64,000 nucleotides of DNA from assembly GCA_019694165.1 (NCBI GenBank), contig JAIBCL010000009.1, forward strand, positions 124,001 through 188,000, read 5' to 3'. Below are positions 6,938 to 38,803 of the stretch, in pieces. This DNA comes from Verrucomicrobiaceae bacterium. Its GTDB lineage: Bacteria > Verrucomicrobiota > Verrucomicrobiia > Verrucomicrobiales > Verrucomicrobiaceae. The position numbers and the translations under genes are program-made. Under the pieces are notes generated by a model. That model was not told where the DNA came from. It made no database searches and worked only from the letters and a program-made list of their open reading frames with translations. Position 1 is the stretch's first letter; each line of letters opens with the position of its first letter.

Positions 6938-9900
6938 CTACTTCACCGCCTCGATGAAGTCGAGCAGATCGGCCATGCCTTGCGGGTCGAGGCCGGCTTC
7001 GATGCCTTCGGGCATGAGGCTCTGGCCGGAGGAACTGCTGCCCTTGATGTTGGCACGCTGAACGTTCACCTCGGCACCGCCCATGAGCTTGAGCGTCATG
7101 CTGCTGGCGTCGTCCTTCGTCACGATGCCGCTGAGCGTCTGGCCGTCTTTGGTGTTCACGGTGTAGGCGATGAACTGTGGCGCGACTTCCTTGTGAGGTT
7201 CGAGGATGGCGGTGAACAAAGCCTCGCGCCCCTTGGTCTTCACGGTCACGAGATCGGGGCCGACCTGGATGCCCTGGCCGTTCGCGCGATGGCACGCGAT
7301 GCAGCGTGCCGCATACTGCTGCGCGCCCCGTGTGGCATCGCCCTTCATCGTGAGCGCGGGCTTCAATTTGGCGACGACTTCTTCGCGGGACGGCGGGATG
7401 ACGGAGGCGAGCACGGTTTTGGCGAGTGACGCGACCTTGTCGTTCTTGTGATGCACGAGCGCCTGCACCTGCGTGGCGCTGAAATCGGCGGGCTTCATCA
7501 CGTTCGCTTCGAGCAAGGCAATCGCGCGATCATCGCGCGCGAGGAAGGCGTCGAGCGTGGCGGCTTTGGTTTTCGCGCCATAGTGCGGCCAGTGGTCGAG
7601 CAGGAGCTTCGTGGTCTTCGCCGACGAATGCTGCGCGAGCGTTTTCAGAGCGGCGGACTGGATCGCATCGGGCTGCCCTTCGCCAAGGCACTGTTCCAGC
7701 GCCTTCGCGGCGTCGGCAGATGAGGTGAGGCCGAGGAGTTCGATGGCTTCGAGGCGGGCGGCCTCGGTGGCTTTTGTGTCGGCGGTTGTGACCGCAGCCG
7801 TGGCGAAGACGGCGGCGAGTTTGTGGCTGGTGTCAGCCTTCTCGATGCTGGTGCCAGCGCGTTTGAAACCGGTGGCCAGGGCACGGATGGCATTCTTAAG
7901 CGCAGAGCCTGACAGAGAGCTGACTTTGCTCACGATGGTCGAAGTGCTGTCACCGTGCATCGGCATCGAGGCGAGGATTTCGATGAGCGACACCGGCGTA
8001 TCGGCTGCGCTCTCGTTCAACAGCCTCAAGGCCACGTCGTGGATGACCGTGGCGCGCGCGCTCGCCACGGCAGCGACCAATCCTGCGTTGCTGGACGAAG
8101 TGCGTACGACATCGGTCAGAGCATTCACGATCTTCTCGTCGAGCGCATCGGCATTCGAGCCGTACTTCTGATAGCCCAGCGTTCCGAGTGTCAGCGCCGC
8201 CTGATAGCGTGTGCGAGGCAATCGGTCCTTCGCGGTGAGTTTGACGATGACAGGCACAAGCTGGTCGGCGGCTTTCGGCGAGGCAGCGATGAAGTCCTCC
8301 GAGAGACTGCACGCACGCTCGGCGACCTTGGCATCGGAATCTCCCAGTGCCTTGGACAAAGCGTCGTTGCTCAAGGCTCCCGCACCTTTGAGGGCGCCGA
8401 GCGCGTATATCTTCGCCAGCGCGTTGTTGCCTTCGAGCACCTTCTCCAGCAGCGGAATGGCGGATTTGTCGTTGCGTTCGTAAAGCAGGCGTTGGGCGGT
8501 GTCGCGGTGCCAGCCGTTCGGGTGGCCGAGTGCGTTGACAAGTTCCTCGGTGCTCATGTCGGCGAGGTTCACGCCTTTGCCGCGACGGTCGGCGCCGGGT
8601 TTCCATCCATCCTTCACGATGCGGTAGATGCGGCCGCGGTCTTTGCCGCTGTTGAGGTCGAGGTGCTTTTTGATCTCGTCGGGGATGCTCCACGGGTGCT
8701 CGATCACCTCGCGATACATGTCGATGATGTTCATGCAGCCGTCGGGCGCGTTGGCGAAGTTCACCACACGCACCCATGTATCCTTGCTGGCGGCGAATTC
8801 GAAGCCGCGCTCGTCAGCGGGGCGCTCGCCTTCGAGCGAGATGCCGTCAGCCGTGGGGCGGATGATTTTGCGATGTACGAGCTGGCCGCCGGCATCGCCA
8901 CTGAAGCTGTTGTTCAGGAATTCGGGTCCATAGGCGTCGCCGCGAAAGATGGTGGTGCCGGTCGCGCCGGTGAAGTAACCGCTCACGCGTCCGCCGCCTT
9001 CGACCGCGCCTTTCACGACGCCGGCGATGCGCCAGCGCGTGCGGATGATGCGCCACGGCTCGTCGGGGCTGATGCGGAAGACTTCCGCCGCGCCGCCATC
9101 GACGGCGATGCTTTGGCGCGACGGTGGCATCTGGAAGTAGGGATCGCGGCCCGCATACTTGTCGTCGTAAACCCAGTATTGCAGGTGGTCGGAGTTCGAG
9201 CAGCCGAACTTGCGGCCGTAGTTGTCAAAGCTCATGCCATACTGTGCGCCGCCGGCTTCAAGCCCGAACTCGAAGGTGCGCGGATCAAACCAAAAGTCTT
9301 TGCCGCCGAGTTCCACGCCTTTGAGATCGGGCCGCTTCAGGCAGGTCATAACGCCACGGTTTCCGCCGCCGGCGAGGATGTGGATGCGGTTGTCCTGCCC
9401 CCACATCGGGCTGTTCGCGAGGCCTTGCACATTGAGCAGCTTCAAGCCCGTGCCGAAGCCGGTGAATACTTTTTCGCGCACGTCGGCTTTGCCGTCGCCA
9501 TTCGTGTCCTTGAAGAACCAAAGGTCCGGCGTGGCGATCACGAACACGCCGCCATTGGCGCAAATGAGGCCGGTGGGCCAGGCGAGATCGTCAGCGAAGA
9601 CGGTGCTCGTTTCAAAATGGCCGTCACCGTCTTTGTCTTCGAGCATCGACACGCGGCCAAGGTGCGGCGTGACATCACGCATCTCGCTGTAGTCGATCAT
9701 CTCACAGGCGAACATGCGCCCGCGTTCGTCGTAGCTGATCGCCACGGGAGAGCGCACCTGCGGTTCGTTGGCGGCGAGTTCGAGATGGAATCCCTTCTTC
9801 ACCTGCCAGGTCGCGATGGCGTCCTTTGGCTCCACGGCCGGGTAGCGCGGCAGATCCTTCGCGGGATCGACGGTGACGGCACCTTTGGTCTCACCGTATG

Positions 9901-10006
9901 ACTTTGCGTAGGTGGATTTGGATTGAATGGCGTCGGCGGCGGAGACGTGTCCGGCGAGGACGCAAAGGACGGAAGCGGCGAGAGGGACGGCTTTGGCTGG
10001 GTGCAT
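6938..10006 (-). CDS. Secreted PVC-type CxxCH heme protein with dehydrogenase-like propeller and HEAT repeats
   Basis: 1022 aa from ATG 10006, which opens a signal peptide ending HVSAADA. The architecture is that common in Planctomycetota/Verrucomicrobiota: an N-terminal 'putative membrane-bound dehydrogenase' propeller (about 45-430, with FHLELAANEPQVRSPVAISYDERG and LEDKDGDGHFE), a HEAT/armadillo-like helical middle (about 480-870), and a C-terminal cytochrome-like domain with heme motif CIACH at about 902-906 plus the MPEGIEAGL ending typical of the putative heme-binding domain. Its substrate is unknown; a periplasmic sugar or alcohol oxidation role is usually assumed. It lies 168 bp upstream of uxaC on the same strand. 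Confidence 0.9.
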   Translation of the reverse strand: MHPAKAVPLAASVLCVLAGHVSAADAIQSKSTYAKSYGETKGAVTVDPAKDLPRYPAVEPKDAIATWQVKKGFHLELAANEPQVRSPVAISYDERGRMFACEMIDYSEMRDVTPHLGRVSMLEDKDGDGHFETSTVFADDLAWPTGLICANGGVFVIATPDLWFFKDTNGDGKADVREKVFTGFGTGLKLLNVQGLANSPMWGQDNRIHILAGGGNRGVMTCLKRPDLKGVELGGKDFWFDPRTFEFGLEAGGAQYGMSFDNYGRKFGCSNSDHLQYWVYDDKYAGRDPYFQMPPSRQSIAVDGGAAEVFRISPDEPWRIIRTRWRIAGVVKGAVEGGGRVSGYFTGATGTTIFRGDAYGPEFLNNSFSGDAGGQLVHRKIIRPTADGISLEGERPADERGFEFAASKDTWVRVVNFANAPDGCMNIIDMYREVIEHPWSIPDEIKKHLDLNSGKDRGRIYRIVKDGWKPGADRRGKGVNLADMSTEELVNALGHPNGWHRDTAQRLLYERNDKSAIPLLEKVLEGNNALAKIYALGALKGAGALSNDALSKALGDSDAKVAERACSLSEDFIAASPKAADQLVPVIVKLTAKDRLPRTRYQAALTLGTLGYQKYGSNADALDEKIVNALTDVVRTSSSNAGLVAAVASARATVIHDVALRLLNESAADTPVSLIEILASMPMHGDSTSTIVSKVSSLSGSALKNAIRALATGFKRAGTSIEKADTSHKLAAVFATAAVTTADTKATEAARLEAIELLGLTSSADAAKALEQCLGEGQPDAIQSAALKTLAQHSSAKTTKLLLDHWPHYGAKTKAATLDAFLARDDRAIALLEANVMKPADFSATQVQALVHHKNDKVASLAKTVLASVIPPSREEVVAKLKPALTMKGDATRGAQQYAARCIACHRANGQGIQVGPDLVTVKTKGREALFTAILEPHKEVAPQFIAYTVNTKDGQTLSGIVTKDDASSMTLKLMGGAEVNVQRANIKGSSSSGQSLMPEGIEAGLDPQGMADLLDFIEAVK

Positions 10007-10270
10007 GGCAGAGAGGAATAAGGTGAAGGGACTGCGGCTTCTGATGCGGAAGTGGCTGAGTCCAGTACGGAAGTGACGGGCGGTCCGTAGCATGGACTTC
10101 CTGCCTCGTTGGAAGTCGTGGTCCGGGGAAAGGCTTGCCGCGTGAGGACGGGAGGCTCGGGGAGTCCCTGGCGCTGGCGCACGCTGACCTGGGTCTTCCT
10201 CCGAAGTTCACGCCAGTGATGTATCGCTTGCACGATTCGTGGTCGCGGGCATCTTTCGCGCCCTTCGTCG

Positions 10271-31357: not shown

Positions 31358-31491
31358 TGCCTCGGGCGGGCACGGCTAATCGCGCGCATACACATCAGGC
31401 TGCCCCGGCGGCGGATGTGCATTTCCGATAGTGCCCCGTGCGAAAAGGCCCTTCACGGCGGGCGTTCCTGTCGCTAGCATCTCCGACCACC

Positions 31492-34400
31492 ATGAAACGC
31501 CTCGCCATCGCCGCAGCACTCCTGCTTTCGACCTTCATCCCTCATCTCTCATCGCAGGCAGCCGAGCCGCTTCGCATCTTCATCCGCTCGGGTCCGAAGT
31601 CCCACGCGCCTGGCTGCCACGATCATCCGGCCTTCCTGCGCGACTGGGTGCCGATGCTGAACGCGCGCGGTGCGAAGTGCACAGGCGGTGATGAGTTCCC
31701 CACGAAGGAACAGCTCGCGCAGACGGACGTGCTGATCATTCATCGCGATGGCGGCGGCAATTTGACGGCGGAACAAAAGGAGCTGCTCAACGACTACACG
31801 AAGCGCGGCGGCGGCATCGTGGTCATCCACGCAGGCTGCGTGGCGGACAAACCGGAAGGCAGCGACTACTACAAGAAGCTGATCGGCGGCTCGTGGCGCA
31901 GGCCCGACACGAAGTGGCTGGAAGCGCCGATGCATCTCTACTTCACCGACCGCGAGAACCCGGTCACGAAGGACATGTCGAACTTCATGATGGAGGACGA
32001 GATCTACTACGACATGGATGTGGATCCCGCCGTCCGCGTGCTCGCCGGAGCCTACACGCCGAAGCCGAAGGACACCGGCGGCAAGGGCAACAAGGAAGCG
32101 CAGGCCCGCGCCGCCGAAGCCGTGGCGAAGAAGAAGGGCGTGAACATTTACGACATCCAGCCGCAAATTTGGATGTGGGAGCCCGGTGCTTATCGCGCGT
32201 TCGTCTGCATCCCCGGCCACGTTTACGAGAACTTCAATCGCTCCAACTTCCGCGCCATGCTGCTGCGAGGCATCGCGTGGGCGGGCAAGCGCGAGAACGC
32301 GGACGAACTCTGCAAGCCCGAGGAACTCGGCGACGCGCTGCGCTATGTGGATGGCGGGCCGACGCGCCCGGAAAAGGCGGCGGAGAAGCTCGAAGTGCAT
32401 CCCGAGTTCAATATCTCGCTCGTCGCTTCCGAGCCGCTGATCAACAAGCCGATGAACATCGACTGGGATGAAAAGGGTCGCCTCTGGGTGGTCGAGACAC
32501 CCGAGTATCCGAATGGTCGTCGCGAACTGAACGTTGAGGCTTGGAAAGACAGCGGCTCGTGGACCAAGAAGCTCGATCGCGATCCGATCGACCGCATTTC
32601 GTGGCTCGAAGACACGAACGGCGACGGCGTGATGGACAAGAAGCACGTCTTTGCCGACAAGCTGGAACTCGCGACGAGCTTCGTGTTCTACAAGAACGGC
32701 GTCATCGTCTGCTCCGCGCCCGACATCTGGAACCTCCAGGACACCGACGGCGACGGCGTGTGCGACAAGCGCGAGAAGCTCTACACCGGTCTCGGCATCC
32801 GCGACACACACGCGGTGATCAACAACATGCGCTGGGGCATGGATGGCTGGATCTACGCAACGCATGGTTACAGCTCAGGCGAAGTGACCTCGCCCGATGG
32901 CTCGAAGAAGTTCGGCACCGACGGCAGCGGCGTCGTTCGCTTCAAGCCCGATGGCAGCGCCTTCGAGCAATACTCCTCACGCGGCGGCAACACCTGGGGC
33001 CTCGACATCACCTGGGACGGCCAGGTCTTCTTCACACAGCCCACCAGCGGCACCGTCTTCTTCCACGTCGTGCTGCCTGAGTATGTGCTGGCCAAAGGCA
33101 AGATCCCCGGCACGACCTCCTGGAAAGGCATGATGGAGCACCAGAAGAGCTACCCGCTCATGTCCTGGCCCGAGCAGGCGTATGTGCAAATCGATCTCGT
33201 GGGCGAATTCACCGCCGCCGCCGGCTGCGCCATCTATGAAGGCGGCGCGTGGCCAGCGAAATGGAACTACAGCTACTTCACCACCGAACCCACGCTCAAC
33301 ATCGTGCATCACGAGTTCGTCGAGAAAGACGGCGTGACCTACAAGTCGCACAAGGAAGCCGGGCGCGAAGAAACCGAGTTCATTCGCAGCAAAGACCTCT
33401 GGTTCCGTCCCATCGAGACACGCGTCGGCCCCGACGGCGCGCTGTATGTGATCGACTTCTACAACCAAGCCGTCATCCACAACGACACGCGTGGCCCGAT
33501 TCACGGGCCTGCGAATGCGGCGGTGCGGCCTGATCGGGATCATTACTTTGGGCGCATCTGGAAGGTGAATCACAAGGAGGCGAAGAAGTTGGAGGTCGCC
33601 AAGCTCGACAAAACAAACCCTGCCGCTCTAAAAGAAGCCGCACAGTCAAACGCGAACGGTCCAACGCGCGAACTTGCGCTTCGCTTGTTGAATGAGGCAA
33701 CGAACACGACCGGCAAAGCCGCTGCCGGACTTTCCATCGAAGGCAACATGCCTGATGTTGGAAGCACGGCGCTTCGTGCGTTCCAGAGTTCGATGGAACG
33801 AGGCGGTTTGAATGACTCCATTTTCATTCCGCACTTAATCGATGAGTTCGTTGCTGCTCGCGATGACTGGACTCGCTCTGCATTCATTGCTGGTGCAGAA
33901 CAGCACGCGAGTCGGTTTATCGACGCTTGTTTGAAACACGATGCGCCGGCACGGCTTGAAGGTTTCGTGCAAACGTTGATTCCTTCAGTCAAGGAGAGCG
34001 GAGTAGAACATCTGATATCCGTATGCACGACCGCACCCGCCAAAGCCGATCCTTTGAAGATCATCATCCTCCAAGGCATCGCGCGTGAGTTGAACGACAT
34101 CCCCGCGCTCACGCCGGAACTCACGGCGGCGTTGAAGAAACTTCTCGCCCAGCCCGCGCTCGCCCCGGCAGCCCTGCCGCTCGCAGTGAAGTGGGACAAG
34201 GGTGGCGCGCTGGCTGATGTGATCAAAACTCAGATCGCGAGTCTCAGCACAACACTTGGCAAGAAGGACGCACCATTGCCCGACCGCATCGGCGCGGCCA
34301 AGGCGCTGATTCAACTGGGTGGCGAGGCAGGCAAAGTTGGAGTCCAGGCTTTAGCCGACCCTTCGACCCCTGACGAACTCTCGCGCGAAATCATCGCCGT

Positions 34401-36534
34401 CCTGGACTCGACCGGCAACGCCGCTCCGCTGGTTGCCTCGCTGAGTCGGCTAAAGCCTGCACTCCAACAGACCGCTTTCGATGCCGTCCTCAAACGCCCC
34501 GAAGCCACTCAAGCGCTGCTCACTTCCATCGCGGATGGCAAGGTCGATCCGAAGCTCCTCGGCCCTGGCAATCTCGCGCGTCTCCGCACGCATCCGAACA
34601 AAGCCGTCGCCAAGCGCGCAGCCGCTATGATGGACAAGCTCAACCCGAACGCGAAGAAGCGCGCTGAGTTGATCGCGCAGTTCACGCCGATCGTGGAGCA
34701 GCCAGGCGATACCGTGAAAGGCAAGGCGCTCTTCACCGCCGCGTGCGCCGTTTGCCACAAGCTCGGCGACATCGGCAAGGACGTGGCCCCGCCGCTCACC
34801 GGCATGGGCGCTCATGGTCCTGCGGAACTCATCATCCATGTGCTCGATCCGAACCGTGAAGTCGATCCGAGCTTCTACTCTTGGAACATCACGAAGAACA
34901 ACGGCGAAACTCTCGCTGGAGTGATCGCTTCCGAGAACAGTGCGGGCGTCACCTTGCGCAATCAGGCGGGTGACTTCGAAGTGAAGAAGTCCGACATCAA
35001 GGAGCGCGTCAACACGAAGATGTCTCTCATGCCCGAGGGTCTCGAAGGCCTCGGCGCGGAGAACATCCGCGACATCCTCGCCTTCATCGTCGGCGATGCC
35101 GCCAAGCACTTCCGCGTGATCCCGTTGACCGATGCCTTCACCGCCGACAGTCGCGACGGACTCTTCGCCAGCGCTGATCCGAAGGGCGGTCAGGTGAAGC
35201 TCGTGAAGTTCGGCAACGTCACCGTCGAAGGCATACCGTTCGCCGTCGTTGATTCAGCGAAGAGCAGCACCGGCGCGAACCTCATCGTGCTCAAAGGCGG
35301 CCCCGGACCTGATGTTCACGGGCAGTCGTTCCCCGCGAAAGTCGAGGTCGCGCTCAACGTCGAGACCAAGCGCCTCCAGCTTCTCAGCGGCATCAGCGGC
35401 TGGGGCTGGCCCTACGGTCAGGACAAAGCCACCGCCATGCTCGCGACCGTGGTCTATGCCAGCGGCGAGCGTGAAGTGTTTGATCTGAAGAACGGCATCG
35501 AGTTCGCCGACTACATCCGCCCCGTCGAAGTGCCGGGCTCGAAGTTTGTCGAAGACCTCTGCAACGGCGGTCAGGTGCGCCTCGTCACGCTGAAGCTCAC
35601 GAAGAAAGGCATCGCGAAGTCCTTGATCCTCGAGAGCCCGAAGGACAATCGCACGACGCCTGTGGTTGTCGCGGTCACGGCTGACATCGAAGGCCGTGTA
35701 GAAGCGAAGGGCGAACCAGCGGCGGCACCTGCTCCTGGTCAAGCCAAGGGCAAAGGCAAAGGAAAGGGCAAGGGTAAAGCCGAGGCCGCGCAGAATGGTC
35801 CCGCCGCTCCTGACTCACCGAAGCAAGGCGCTGGTGGCGACGGCCCGCTCGCACCGACCACACCGGCGAATTGGGAAGCAGGCAAGACGAAGGTGCTCGT
35901 GATCGGCGGCGGTTCTTCTCACAACTTCGCGAAGTTCTTCGGCGACACCGACGTGGCCACGCTCAAGGGCGCGGGTTACACCGTTCACTACACCGAAGAC
36001 CGTGACCAAGCCGCCGACCTCCTCGCCGAAGCCGACGTGGCCGTCATCAGCGTGAACCGCAAGTTCTTCGACACCGCCCGCTATCGCAAAGCCCTCATGG
36101 ATCGTGTGAACGCCGGCAAAGGTGTCATCATGCTGCACCCAGGCACCTGGTATGGCTTCGCTGCCTGGCCGGAACTCAACGCCCAAGTCGTCGGCGGCGG
36201 TGCCCGCGGTCACGACAAGCTCGGCGATTTCAAAGTCAACGTCACCCGCCGCGATCACGCCATCATGGTCGGCGTGCCCGACAGCTTCGCCGTCACCGAC
36301 GAACTGTATTATGTGAATGCCGAAGGCGTCCCCGAAGGCACCAACAAGATCGAAGTCCTGGCCGAGACGACTCCGAGCATCAAATACAACAAGCCTCACC
36401 CAAGCGTCTGGATCACCGATCATCCGAAGGCTCGCATCGTCGGCATCGCCCTTGGTCATGATGATCGCGTGCATGATCTCGCGCCCTTCAAAGCCATCCT
36501 CACCAACTCGGTGAAGTGGGTGGTAGGGAAGTGA
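31492..36534 (+). CDS. Giant secreted ThuA / dehydrogenase / CxxCH heme / ThuA fusion
   Basis: 1680 aa from ATG 31492 (signal peptide ending SSQAAE). Domains in order: ThuA-like glutamine-amidotransferase fold (~24-280; IFIRSGPKSHAPGCHDH, GGGIVVIHAG); 'membrane-bound dehydrogenase' propeller (~300-700; FNISLVASEPLINKPMNIDW, SWLEDTNGDGVMD); HEAT-like helical region (~700-1050); cytochrome-like domain with CAVCH at 1085-1089; a beta region (~1200-1410); a GKGKGKGKGK linker near 1420; and a second ThuA-like domain (~1467-1680; VLVIGGGSSHNFAKFF, GVIMLHPGTWYGFAAWPEL). ThuA domains are linked to trehalose/sugar oxidation. Related CxxCH proteins usually carry one ThuA domain at most, so two in one chain is notable. 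It stands alone. Confidence 0.88.
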   Translation: MKRLAIAAALLLSTFIPHLSSQAAEPLRIFIRSGPKSHAPGCHDHPAFLRDWVPMLNARGAKCTGGDEFPTKEQLAQTDVLIIHRDGGGNLTAEQKELLNDYTKRGGGIVVIHAGCVADKPEGSDYYKKLIGGSWRRPDTKWLEAPMHLYFTDRENPVTKDMSNFMMEDEIYYDMDVDPAVRVLAGAYTPKPKDTGGKGNKEAQARAAEAVAKKKGVNIYDIQPQIWMWEPGAYRAFVCIPGHVYENFNRSNFRAMLLRGIAWAGKRENADELCKPEELGDALRYVDGGPTRPEKAAEKLEVHPEFNISLVASEPLINKPMNIDWDEKGRLWVVETPEYPNGRRELNVEAWKDSGSWTKKLDRDPIDRISWLEDTNGDGVMDKKHVFADKLELATSFVFYKNGVIVCSAPDIWNLQDTDGDGVCDKREKLYTGLGIRDTHAVINNMRWGMDGWIYATHGYSSGEVTSPDGSKKFGTDGSGVVRFKPDGSAFEQYSSRGGNTWGLDITWDGQVFFTQPTSGTVFFHVVLPEYVLAKGKIPGTTSWKGMMEHQKSYPLMSWPEQAYVQIDLVGEFTAAAGCAIYEGGAWPAKWNYSYFTTEPTLNIVHHEFVEKDGVTYKSHKEAGREETEFIRSKDLWFRPIETRVGPDGALYVIDFYNQAVIHNDTRGPIHGPANAAVRPDRDHYFGRIWKVNHKEAKKLEVAKLDKTNPAALKEAAQSNANGPTRELALRLLNEATNTTGKAAAGLSIEGNMPDVGSTALRAFQSSMERGGLNDSIFIPHLIDEFVAARDDWTRSAFIAGAEQHASRFIDACLKHDAPARLEGFVQTLIPSVKESGVEHLISVCTTAPAKADPLKIIILQGIARELNDIPALTPELTAALKKLLAQPALAPAALPLAVKWDKGGALADVIKTQIASLSTTLGKKDAPLPDRIGAAKALIQLGGEAGKVGVQALADPSTPDELSREIIAVLDSTGNAAPLVASLSRLKPALQQTAFDAVLKRPEATQALLTSIADGKVDPKLLGPGNLARLRTHPNKAVAKRAAAMMDKLNPNAKKRAELIAQFTPIVEQPGDTVKGKALFTAACAVCHKLGDIGKDVAPPLTGMGAHGPAELIIHVLDPNREVDPSFYSWNITKNNGETLAGVIASENSAGVTLRNQAGDFEVKKSDIKERVNTKMSLMPEGLEGLGAENIRDILAFIVGDAAKHFRVIPLTDAFTADSRDGLFASADPKGGQVKLVKFGNVTVEGIPFAVVDSAKSSTGANLIVLKGGPGPDVHGQSFPAKVEVALNVETKRLQLLSGISGWGWPYGQDKATAMLATVVYASGEREVFDLKNGIEFADYIRPVEVPGSKFVEDLCNGGQVRLVTLKLTKKGIAKSLILESPKDNRTTPVVVAVTADIEGRVEAKGEPAAAPAPGQAKGKGKGKGKGKAEAAQNGPAAPDSPKQGAGGDGPLAPTTPANWEAGKTKVLVIGGGSSHNFAKFFGDTDVATLKGAGYTVHYTEDRDQAADLLAEADVAVISVNRKFFDTARYRKALMDRVNAGKGVIMLHPGTWYGFAAWPELNAQVVGGGARGHDKLGDFKVNVTRRDHAIMVGVPDSFAVTDELYYVNAEGVPEGTNKIEVLAETTPSIKYNKPHPSVWITDHPKARIVGIALGHDDRVHDLAPFKAILTNSVKWVVGK

Positions 36535-36550: not shown

Positions 36551-38803
36551 TTACTTCGCCGCCACTTTTCCGCTGCCGACGGGCACGAAGTGTTCGATGT
36601 AGCCGATCATCATTTCGTCCTGGGTCTGCTGGCCCCAGCGCACGGTGGCTGTGGGATCCGGGTTCGCCGGATTGCCGGCGCTGTTGTCATACACGGCGGT
36701 GATCTTGAGGATGGTGCCGCGGGGCAGTGTGCGATACTGGCCGAGTGTGTAGCGGAGCTGCCAGTTGAAGTCGTAGCGCGGGATGTCGAGCAGAGTCTCG
36801 GTGGAGCCATCTGGTTTCACGACCTCGTATTTGAACGACTTCCCCCGAAGGTGCAGATGGGCGAGGAATCCCATGACATTCATGTCGAAGGGGATGGTGC
36901 GCGTTTCGACCTCGACGTGATTGGCGTCTCCGGGCGGGATGTTCAGCGCTCGGCGAGGCAGGCCGGTGGTCTGGACCATGTAGCGCGGCGGTGATTTGGC
37001 GAAGACCAGGCCCATGCGGAGCTGATCCTGCGTGGCCTTGCCCGAGGGTGTGTAGTGGATTTGAAAGCTGACCACGGATCCCGCCGGCAGCTTCCGCGCG
37101 AAGCCGTCGGGATAGATTTCCTTTGAGTTTCCCGGCACGTAGGCTGCCCAGTAGCCGCCAGCTCCTTCGTCGCGGTCCTTCACATGTTGAGTGCCTTTCG
37201 GGTGCACGCTGACAATGACGTGGTGCACCACCTTCCGGTCCGTGGGCATGATCTCATAGGCCTGCACCCACTTGTCCTCGGTGAGCGTGGTCTGGGTGTT
37301 CACCACCTGATAAGGCATCGTGCCCTCGGCCTTGATGTGGATGGGGCGCGGCAGTTGCACGATGTAATCCGGCTGCCCGATGCTCCAGCCGGAGGGCCAC
37401 TGATGCGGGACGGGCGCGTCCTTCGGATCGCCCTCGGCACGCGGCGAGTCGAGCCAGGCGAGCAGGGCCGCCTTGTCCTTCTCGTCCAGGGAGCAGTCAT
37501 TTGCCCACGGACTTTCCTTTTCACCTGGCTGTTTCGCGGCGAACCAAGGCGGCATCGCGCCGCGCGTGACCTGCTTCTTGATCATGCCGGCGTGTTCGAT
37601 CACATCGGCATACGTTTCGAGACTGAATGGCGCGAGGCCTTCGGCTCGATGGCACTCGACGCAGTGGCCGGCGACGATGCGGCTGATCTCGCGATGCCAG
37701 GTCGGCGTGGCGGGCGCGGATGTGCTGGTCGTGGTTCGCAAATCCAACGCGCAGCCGGGAGCGGTGGTGGCCGTGACGACGGGTGCGGCGGAGCGCAGCA
37801 CGGCATCGAGCGCCGGGCGCAGGTAAGACTCGGAGGGCGCGTCCTTGGCGTAGCCGAGACCGTACTGGTCATTGATGGCACCGCGATAGACGAGCGTGCG
37901 GGCGGCGTCGAGCACGAAGACTTCGGTCGTCGTCGTGGCGCCGAGTGCGGCGGCCAGCACACCGTCCACGTCATGCACGACGGCGGAGGTGAGCCCGGCG
38001 CCATTGATGAATTTGCTGATGTTTTCCGGCTTCTCGCCGGCCACGGGAGCGACGAGCAGGAAGCCGACATTCCGTGCGCCGTATTCCTTCTCGATGCGCG
38101 CGAGCTCCGGGGCGAGCTTCAGGCTGACAGGGCAGCTTGTGCCGAAGAGGGCGATGACCAGCGCCTTGTTCTTCTGGAAGTCACCGAGCTTCACGCCCGT
38201 GCCCATGGTGTCTGTCAGCGCGATGTCGGGAATCATGCGGCCCACACCTTGCTCGCTGCCTTTGAGCTGTTTCGGGCGCTCTTGCAGCGAGGCCGCCTGC
38301 TCCGGAGTGGCGGCGGGCGACTCGGCGGCGCCGTTGCGACGCTTCAGCCACTTCTCGGGAATCGTCGCGCCGATGACCTTGAGCGACTCCTCGAGCGTGA
38401 CGGCACCGTCTTTGTTCAGATCAAGCCGGTCAAAGATCTCGCCGCTCGTGAGTTCCTCCGGAGAAAGGCGGGCATCCCCGTTTTTGTCGAGCGCACGGAA
38501 GATCACGCCCGTGCGGTTCTCACCCGCCGACGGAGCGGTCGTGTCCGGGGCGATCGCGCCCTTGAGCTTGCCGAGGGCATCGAGGGCCTCCTGTTTGGTG
38601 ACCCTGCCGTCGTGATCAAGGTCGAGCTTGGGCAGCACCGGCGAGCCGTTGAGTTCATCACCGGAGAGCACGCCGTCCTTGTTCGCATCGAAGTGATCGA
38701 ACCGCGCCTCAAGAGCGCCGAGACCGCGCCCCGACTGCTGCGTTAACGCGATGCCGCTGCTGACAAGACCAGTGGCGAGAATGACGAGGAGCCTGATGTT
38801 CAT
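36551..38803 (-). CDS. Secreted EF-hand / redoxin / CxxCH / copper-monooxygenase-like fusion
   Basis: 750 aa with an N-terminal signal (MNIRLLVILATGLVSSGIA). Four EF-hand loops lie in residues ~35-145 (DANKDGVLSGDE, DLDHDGRVTKQE, DKNGDARLSPEE, DLNKDGAVTLEE). A thioredoxin-fold redoxin follows (~190-330; ALFGTSCPVSLK). A heme-type motif CVECH is at 381-385 with the family phrase GAMPPWFA. The C-terminal half resembles copper type II ascorbate-dependent monooxygenases, with candidate Cu ligands HH at 527-528 (VVHHVIVSVHP), then HYTP and LAHLHLRGKSF. The reaction is unknown. It converges with the giant ThuA gene, the two stops 16 bp apart. Confidence 0.82.
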   Translation of the reverse strand: MNIRLLVILATGLVSSGIALTQQSGRGLGALEARFDHFDANKDGVLSGDELNGSPVLPKLDLDHDGRVTKQEALDALGKLKGAIAPDTTAPSAGENRTGVIFRALDKNGDARLSPEELTSGEIFDRLDLNKDGAVTLEESLKVIGATIPEKWLKRRNGAAESPAATPEQAASLQERPKQLKGSEQGVGRMIPDIALTDTMGTGVKLGDFQKNKALVIALFGTSCPVSLKLAPELARIEKEYGARNVGFLLVAPVAGEKPENISKFINGAGLTSAVVHDVDGVLAAALGATTTTEVFVLDAARTLVYRGAINDQYGLGYAKDAPSESYLRPALDAVLRSAAPVVTATTAPGCALDLRTTTSTSAPATPTWHREISRIVAGHCVECHRAEGLAPFSLETYADVIEHAGMIKKQVTRGAMPPWFAAKQPGEKESPWANDCSLDEKDKAALLAWLDSPRAEGDPKDAPVPHQWPSGWSIGQPDYIVQLPRPIHIKAEGTMPYQVVNTQTTLTEDKWVQAYEIMPTDRKVVHHVIVSVHPKGTQHVKDRDEGAGGYWAAYVPGNSKEIYPDGFARKLPAGSVVSFQIHYTPSGKATQDQLRMGLVFAKSPPRYMVQTTGLPRRALNIPPGDANHVEVETRTIPFDMNVMGFLAHLHLRGKSFKYEVVKPDGSTETLLDIPRYDFNWQLRYTLGQYRTLPRGTILKITAVYDNSAGNPANPDPTATVRWGQQTQDEMMIGYIEHFVPVGSGKVAAK

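Follow-up and report, generated by a model that had tools for sequence, protein, structure and literature searches.

A near-universal Verrucomicrobiaceae protein with ThuA domains at both ends of a propeller, helical-repeat and heme core, a candidate for carbohydrate processing

Why should a single polypeptide carry a ThuA domain at each end of a propeller, a helical scaffold and a cytochrome-type domain, and what would such a chain do? The question is raised by one gene of the window, the whole 64,000-nucleotide stretch analysed here. Its preliminary description recognised ThuA-like folds at both ends of a 1680-residue protein, around a propeller and HEAT core with a CAVCH heme motif, and proposed that separate gene fusions had assembled a sugar-oxidising periplasmic complex on one chain. 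The frame is open over 31438-36534 on the forward strand, upstream as far as a GTG at 31438, and the five relatives in whose loci the beginning of the gene is complete (L047, L048, L050, L051 and L052) all start at the counterpart of the ATG at 31492. From its signal peptide, judged by eye, the protein is probably exported; then follow ThuA domain 1, the DUF7133/TIGR02604 propeller, HEAT-like repeats, the TIGR02603 heme-c domain, a beta-rich domain, a linker and ThuA domain 2 (Table 1). AlphaFold gave a mean pLDDT of 60 for the C-terminal half and of 47, from 8 sequences, for the N-terminal half, where the propeller model is too poor for a structural comparison of active sites.

Table 1. Features of the double-ThuA gene and its product (positions of the window)
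Feature	Residues	Positions	Strand	Basis
Whole gene	1680 aa + stop	31492..36534	+	ATG start; open frame
Signal peptide	1-23	31492..31560	+	by eye, from the sequence and aligned relatives
ThuA domain 1	27-285	31570..32346	+	PF06283; best Foldseek match 4e5v, ThuA-like, E 6.4e-06
Beta-propeller DUF7133/TIGR02604	293-696	32368..33579	+	PF23500 E 2.5e-135; TIGR02604 E 8.5e-77
Helical HEAT/ARM-like repeats	about 759-1069	33766..34698	+	predicted helices, pLDDT mostly 70-90
Heme-c domain TIGR02603	1072-1199	34705..35088	+	E 1.2e-29; aligned with 7zs0, E 4.3e-07
CAVCH heme attachment motif	1085-1089	34744..34758	+	C, C, H in 47/47 rows
Met1180, probable distal heme ligand	1180	35029..35031	+	aligned with Met292 of Kustd1711
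Beta-rich domain, uncatalogued	1203-1410	35098..35721	+	about 210 aa between heme and linker
Low-complexity K/G-rich linker	about 1421-1456	35752..35859	+	varies among relatives
ThuA domain 2	1457-1680	35860..36531	+	PF06283; VIA-align Z 20.8 to 1t0b, rmsd 2.6 over 203 residues

The two ThuA domains stand at both ends of the chain as first described. Pfam PF06283 recognised two stretches (whole-protein E 1e-52, 179.9 bits, for a cut-off of 33.4) which, scored apart in the genome scan, reached 100.4 and 89.2 bits, and both domains match ThuA crystal structures. For ThuA 1, in a model poor as a whole, 4pxy and 4jqs were best Foldseek matches together with 4e5v; for ThuA 2, VIA-align gave Z scores of 19.8 for 4e5v and 19.3 for 4jqs besides the match to 1t0b. 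Failure of either ThuA call is ruled out by these profile scores and structure matches. The positions common to both groups are Asp79/Asp1515, His113/His1549, Asp169-Glu170/Asp1603-Glu1604, Trp227/Trp1640 and Trp263/Trp1676, conserved in at least 43 of 46 N-terminal rows, at least 41 of 44 C-terminal rows and 7 to 13 of the 13 stand-alone rows (His in 11, Asp in 7, Glu in 10). His1549, Asp1603 and Glu1604 are present in all 44 rows having ThuA 2.

A domain-architecture search recovered the layout in many species. Both ThuA domains lie in one full-length frame in 30 of 36 family genomes (the genome studied and 35 others), and an assembly artefact joining two genes, or a frame open by chance, is ruled out by the identical layout in many species. 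The whole protein or large pieces of it are held by 35 of these 36 genomes, the remaining one (G021, 76% complete) having an N-terminal ThuA fragment; the protein is cut by contig ends in G001 and G008, with a stop counted inside the G008 match, and split over contigs in G005, G014 and G028. With ThuA 2 alone as query, 64 of 68 family genomes match, among them all 47 with a completeness of 90% or more and a contamination of 5% or less; each matching genome has a single match, apart from G005, G007 and G359. An even sample of 288 genomes of the phylum was scored for the two best places per genome at E <= 1e-100, which makes its counts lower bounds, and at least 15 genomes matched, both ThuA domains being present in 14 of them; seven belong to the family, five to the order and three to the class. 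The double-ThuA protein is near-universal in Verrucomicrobiaceae and nearly always present once per genome, and its domain architecture is real, old and kept across the family.

The core between the ThuA domains also stands as first read. TIGR02604 scores 259 bits (cut-off 122.2), with its best stretch over residues 306-695, and TIGR02603 scores 103 bits (cut-off 68.15). The repeats, which match no Pfam family, are supported by predicted helices and by their resemblance to importin/armadillo-type solenoids (E about 1e-3). Conservation is low in their first half (33709-34191), at 55% identity to L047, whereas the heme domain reaches 95%.

The heme domain aligns with 7zs0-7zs2 of the cytochrome Kustd1711 at E 4.3e-07, and Cys1085, Cys1088, His1089 and Met1180 are invariant in the 47 full-length rows. 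In Kustd1711 the distal ligand is Met292, which was mutated, the hemes have His/Met ligands and potentials of about +350 mV, and a calcium bound by backbone carbonyls lies 6.9 A from the heme iron (PMC11791136). By this alignment Met1180 is probably the distal ligand, and the domain probably carries a His/Met heme c of high potential. TIGR02603 is named nowhere in PMC11791136, and its link with Kustd1711 is drawn in the present analysis.

Between heme and linker, the beta-rich domain has Gly, Trp, Asp and Arg positions that do not vary across 31 relatives and is present as a single copy in the genome studied. No Pfam family was matched by more than one of the 31 members, no PDB sequence match was better than E 0.52, and the VIA-align matches, filled by ThuA structures, are uninformative on this middle part. 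The domain is dispensable, since L090, L091 and L096 are devoid of it.

How the two ThuA domains came to flank this core is answered in part by their phylogeny. A tree of 104 rows gathers the 47 N-terminal domains into one group and the 44 C-terminal domains into another (support 99), and places the two groups together with support 0; alternatives tying the N-terminal or the C-terminal group to stand-alone proteins fit equally (p-AU 0.583 and 0.59, with log-likelihoods about 4 higher). A single internal duplication is a possible origin of both domains. Separate fusion events had been proposed from the different join styles, direct for the N-terminal domain and through a low-complexity GKGK linker for the C-terminal one. 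The linker is present, as a simple lysine- and glycine-rich stretch, and its length and letters change between species, so that the argument is weak and linker style is ruled out as a sign of fusion history.

Members with a different ThuA content are more informative. Four have the N-terminal ThuA only (L085, L087, L094 and L096): L094 lies among double-ThuA members and therefore represents a ThuA loss, and the other three lie in a clade that includes one double member, L092. Conversely, a C-type ThuA stands alone in two proteins, L130 (on a contig of 386 kb) and L131 (on one of 5 kb), which have signal peptides by eye and fall inside the C-terminal group (support 99), a C-terminal group without them being not rejected (p-AU 0.495); their N-terminal stretch resembles, by eye, the linker end of the fused L097, L031 and L032. 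Because both N-terminal-only members and stand-alone exported C-type proteins exist, the C-terminal ThuA appears as an independent module that was joined or set free in evolution. A second ThuA-DUF7133 frame of 1572 aa (L008, contig C14) carries a ThuA of another clade, and therefore ThuA-DUF7133 fusions probably arose more than once. The trees for the sister relation of the two groups, for the N-terminal-only members and for the stand-alone C-type proteins used chosen subsets of 58, 34 and 53 rows, those of 58 and 53 rows being built without long-branch ThuA rows. Compared with L047, its closest relative, the protein is 62-69% identical over 31570-32091, the first two thirds of ThuA 1, and 93-97% identical over the propeller. 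By its ThuA 1 it groups with L024/L028 (support 98), by its ThuA 2 and propeller with L047. This mosaic suggests recombination in the ThuA 1 region, although the usual grouping is compatible with the AU test on ThuA 1 (p 0.4).

The genomic context is rich in related proteins. The genome studied has 50 DUF7133 matches in about 44 frames, 39 TIGR02603 matches (35 over cut-off) and 16 ThuA matches (15 over cut-off). In the window, a second DUF7133 propeller/TIGR02603 heme protein is encoded at 6938-10093 on the reverse strand (1051 aa), and its heme domain is the genome's best TIGR02603 match. The tail-to-tail neighbour at 36551-38803, also on the reverse strand (750 aa), has EF-hands and a redoxin domain, ends in Cu2_monoox_C and contains a heme-type motif, CVECH. 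None of ten neighbouring frames of the window was found in the loci of seven named relatives, five of which (L047, L048, L050, L051 and L052) had 8 kb on both sides, the gene itself serving as positive control.

What such a protein may do is best approached through Lac161_ORF7 (AGW45552), encoded on a cosmid assigned to Chthoniobacter and described with TIGR02604, HEAT_2 and the CxxCH domain TIGR02603. Purified from E. coli, it releases glucose from lactose with a Km of 1.8 mM and a kcat of 13.2 per s. The study proposed a new beta-galactosidase family for it and apparently left the role of its heme open (PMC5342196). Eighteen propeller homologues of Lac161_ORF7 in one planctomycete were described as distant relatives of a putative glycoside hydrolase family (PMC5352709). 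Lactose cleavage by Lac161_ORF7 points to glycoside cleavage rather than oxidation. With about even confidence, we consider that the double-ThuA protein is an exported carbohydrate-processing protein with a core of the Lac161_ORF7 kind, in which a glycoside-cleaving propeller is combined with an electron-transfer heme. After export, a glycosidic bond would be cleaved by the propeller and the sugar bound or processed further by the two ThuA domains, with the helical repeats as a scaffold that keeps the parts together; the His/Met heme c would pass on electrons from a coupled oxidation or connect the protein to the respiratory chain. Several points weigh against this reading: the genome holds dozens of such propellers, so that function here may differ from that of Lac161_ORF7; no conserved neighbour names a substrate; and the lactose result comes from one study with protein made in E. 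coli. Because of that origin, lactose cleavage leaves the conserved heme unexplained, and its ligands, conserved in 47 of 47 rows, would not be needed by a plain hydrolase.

This heme is one argument for an oxidative route, in which a glycoside would be oxidised, for instance to a 3-keto-glycoside, the heme would accept the electrons, and the keto-sugar would be cleaved or converted by a ThuA domain or another one. Besides the invariant ligands of a heme fused to the core, LacABC and DUF1080 proteins have been proposed to oxidise and then cleave lactose in the periplasm of other bacteria (PMC9007349), and ThuA is named, in the Pfam description, for trehalose use. However, Lac161_ORF7 freed glucose from lactose in a simple buffer assay without need of an electron acceptor (PMC5342196), and the propeller has no known cofactor; we consider this route unlikely.

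An envelope glycan-binding scaffold is decidedly improbable. The ThuA domains would act as carbohydrate-binding modules only, the propeller would be structural and the heme would transfer electrons. ThuA-like folds do serve as glycan-binding domains in SGBP-lev and Agd3 (PMC7618045, PMC7229062), and ThuA 2 aligns in VIA-align with the levan utilisome chain 8aa2 (Z 13.9) and with Agd3 6nwz (Z 14.6). Nevertheless, the Agd3 domain is described as being without conserved ThuA-like surface residues (PMC7229062), whereas both domains here keep the His and the Asp-Glu pair, and Lac161_ORF7 is catalytic (PMC5342196).

A more specific form of sugar oxidation would make the propeller a PQQ-dependent sugar dehydrogenase that uses external PQQ and passes electrons to the fused heme. 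A 40-row propeller profile gave weak matches to Asd/sGDH-type PQQ enzymes, behind a designed propeller (E 0.00046 for 2g8s, 0.0024 for 7cdy, 0.048 for 5min and 1c9u). The propeller alignment comprised 48 subfamily and 27 paralogue rows, after removal of L031, L106 and L128 (matched span of at least 520 residues) and of the duplicates L102 and L080. Asp655 and Arg688 are present in all 75 rows, and His440 in the 48 subfamily rows and in 13 of the 27 paralogue rows; Glu314 and Asp326 are, like Asp655, invariant acids. By motif placement, His440 may stand where the catalytic His144 of sGDH would be; a sub-profile search of the propeller matched chiefly designed Pizza propellers, and none of its alignments extends through His440. 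In a weak alignment, the 'RN' pair of 2g8s and 7cdy becomes 'GN' in the propeller: residue 499, which takes the place of the PQQ-contact Arg, is a Gly or a Ser throughout the 48 subfamily rows and Arg in 5 of 27 paralogue rows, and Asn500 is conserved. This 'RN' pair is presumably Arg430-Asn431 of the Coprinopsis enzyme CcPDH. Arg430 is kept in bacterial enzymes according to the CcPDH paper (PMC6881789).

The similarity to Asd/sGDH-type enzymes, the kept Asn and terminal Arg, the putative placement of His440 and the precedents of CcPDH, a PQQ-plus-heme fusion, and of E. coli, which depends on environmental PQQ (PMC6881789), all favour such a dehydrogenase. Against it, pqqC was found in none of 57 genomes (the one studied and 56 relatives). 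The 14 standard controls were silent for pqqC, and the phylum search therefore served as positive control: 8 of 288 genomes matched, 6 over cut-off, and none of the 15 that carry the double-ThuA protein did. As a second PQQ marker, pqqE (TIGR02109) was discarded: it is over cut-off in 0 of 57 genomes, and all 14 controls score below cut-off as well. PQQ-based sugar oxidation is unlikely because the PQQ-contact Arg is missing (48/48) and pqqC is absent (57 genomes), and the dehydrogenase fed by external PQQ appears very improbable. Of the sugar-oxidising complex on one chain proposed at the outset, the exported, sugar-linked heme protein is supported; the oxidation finds no support in the lactose cleavage of Lac161_ORF7, the weak PQQ likeness, the missing Arg or the lack of pqqC. 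Finally, a general envelope redox or assembly factor without action on sugars would fit a near-universal, nearly always single-copy protein without conserved neighbours, which looks like a core function, and ThuA-like folds are also known from enzymes of other kinds, dimethylformamidase among them (PMC7686228), but the relative with known biochemistry and the closest annotated folds both point to carbohydrates, which makes this factor very unlikely.

The label 'sugar-processing' thus appears well founded, and the glycoside-cleaving protein of the Lac161_ORF7 kind is the reading we retain. A bolder version of it, which we regard as unlikely, would make the protein a family-wide core envelope enzyme with a glycoside-cleaving propeller, two ThuA domains that bind the sugar or convert it, and a fused, calcium-tuned, high-potential heme that couples the reaction to respiration, the ThuA domains being exchanged or lost as units of specificity. 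If true, such a joined hydrolase-oxidase would be not yet described.

The double-ThuA form is a variant of a known propeller-HEAT-heme group for which one characterised member was found. In the open-access literature, no paper on the double-ThuA layout was among the matches listed. New here are its occurrence in nearly all genomes of the family, the assignment, from the Kustd1711 alignment, of Met1180 as probable distal heme ligand, the stand-alone exported relatives of the C-terminal ThuA and the members with the N-terminal ThuA only. PVC genomes hold dozens of heme-propeller proteins, against one biochemical report (Lac161_ORF7) among the matches listed. With an orthologue in 47 of 47 good genomes, nearly always once, the double-ThuA protein is therefore better suited to genetic study than the variable paralogues, and it permits concrete tests of glycoside cleavage, of heme ligands taken from a solved relative and of separable ThuA modules.

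Compared with known systems, both end domains share with the ThuA family (PF06283; 1t0b, 4jqs, 4e5v) the fold and the His, Asp-Glu and Trp positions, and differ in being fused and exported. The Kuenenia diheme cytochrome Kustd1711 (7zs0) aligns through its C-terminal heme domain over 114 residues, with CxxCH and distal Met; it differs in its two heme domains and has neither ThuA nor propeller. CcPDH (AA12-AA8; PMC6881789) likewise unites propeller and heme in one chain, but its heme is a heme b of another fold and its PQQ is verified, and the equivalent of its Arg430 is absent here. Lac161_ORF7, of the same phylum and likened by its described domain layout, has TIGR02604, HEAT and TIGR02603 in identical order; it differs by its size of 109 kDa and has no ThuA among the three domains listed for it (PMC5342196). 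The PVC-type heme-binding CxxCH proteins (TIGR02604 and TIGR02603; DUF7133), with dozens of paralogues in the genome, share the propeller and the heme domain, both over curated cut-offs; to these the double-ThuA protein adds a ThuA domain at each end and the beta-rich domain, and it is near-universal in its family.
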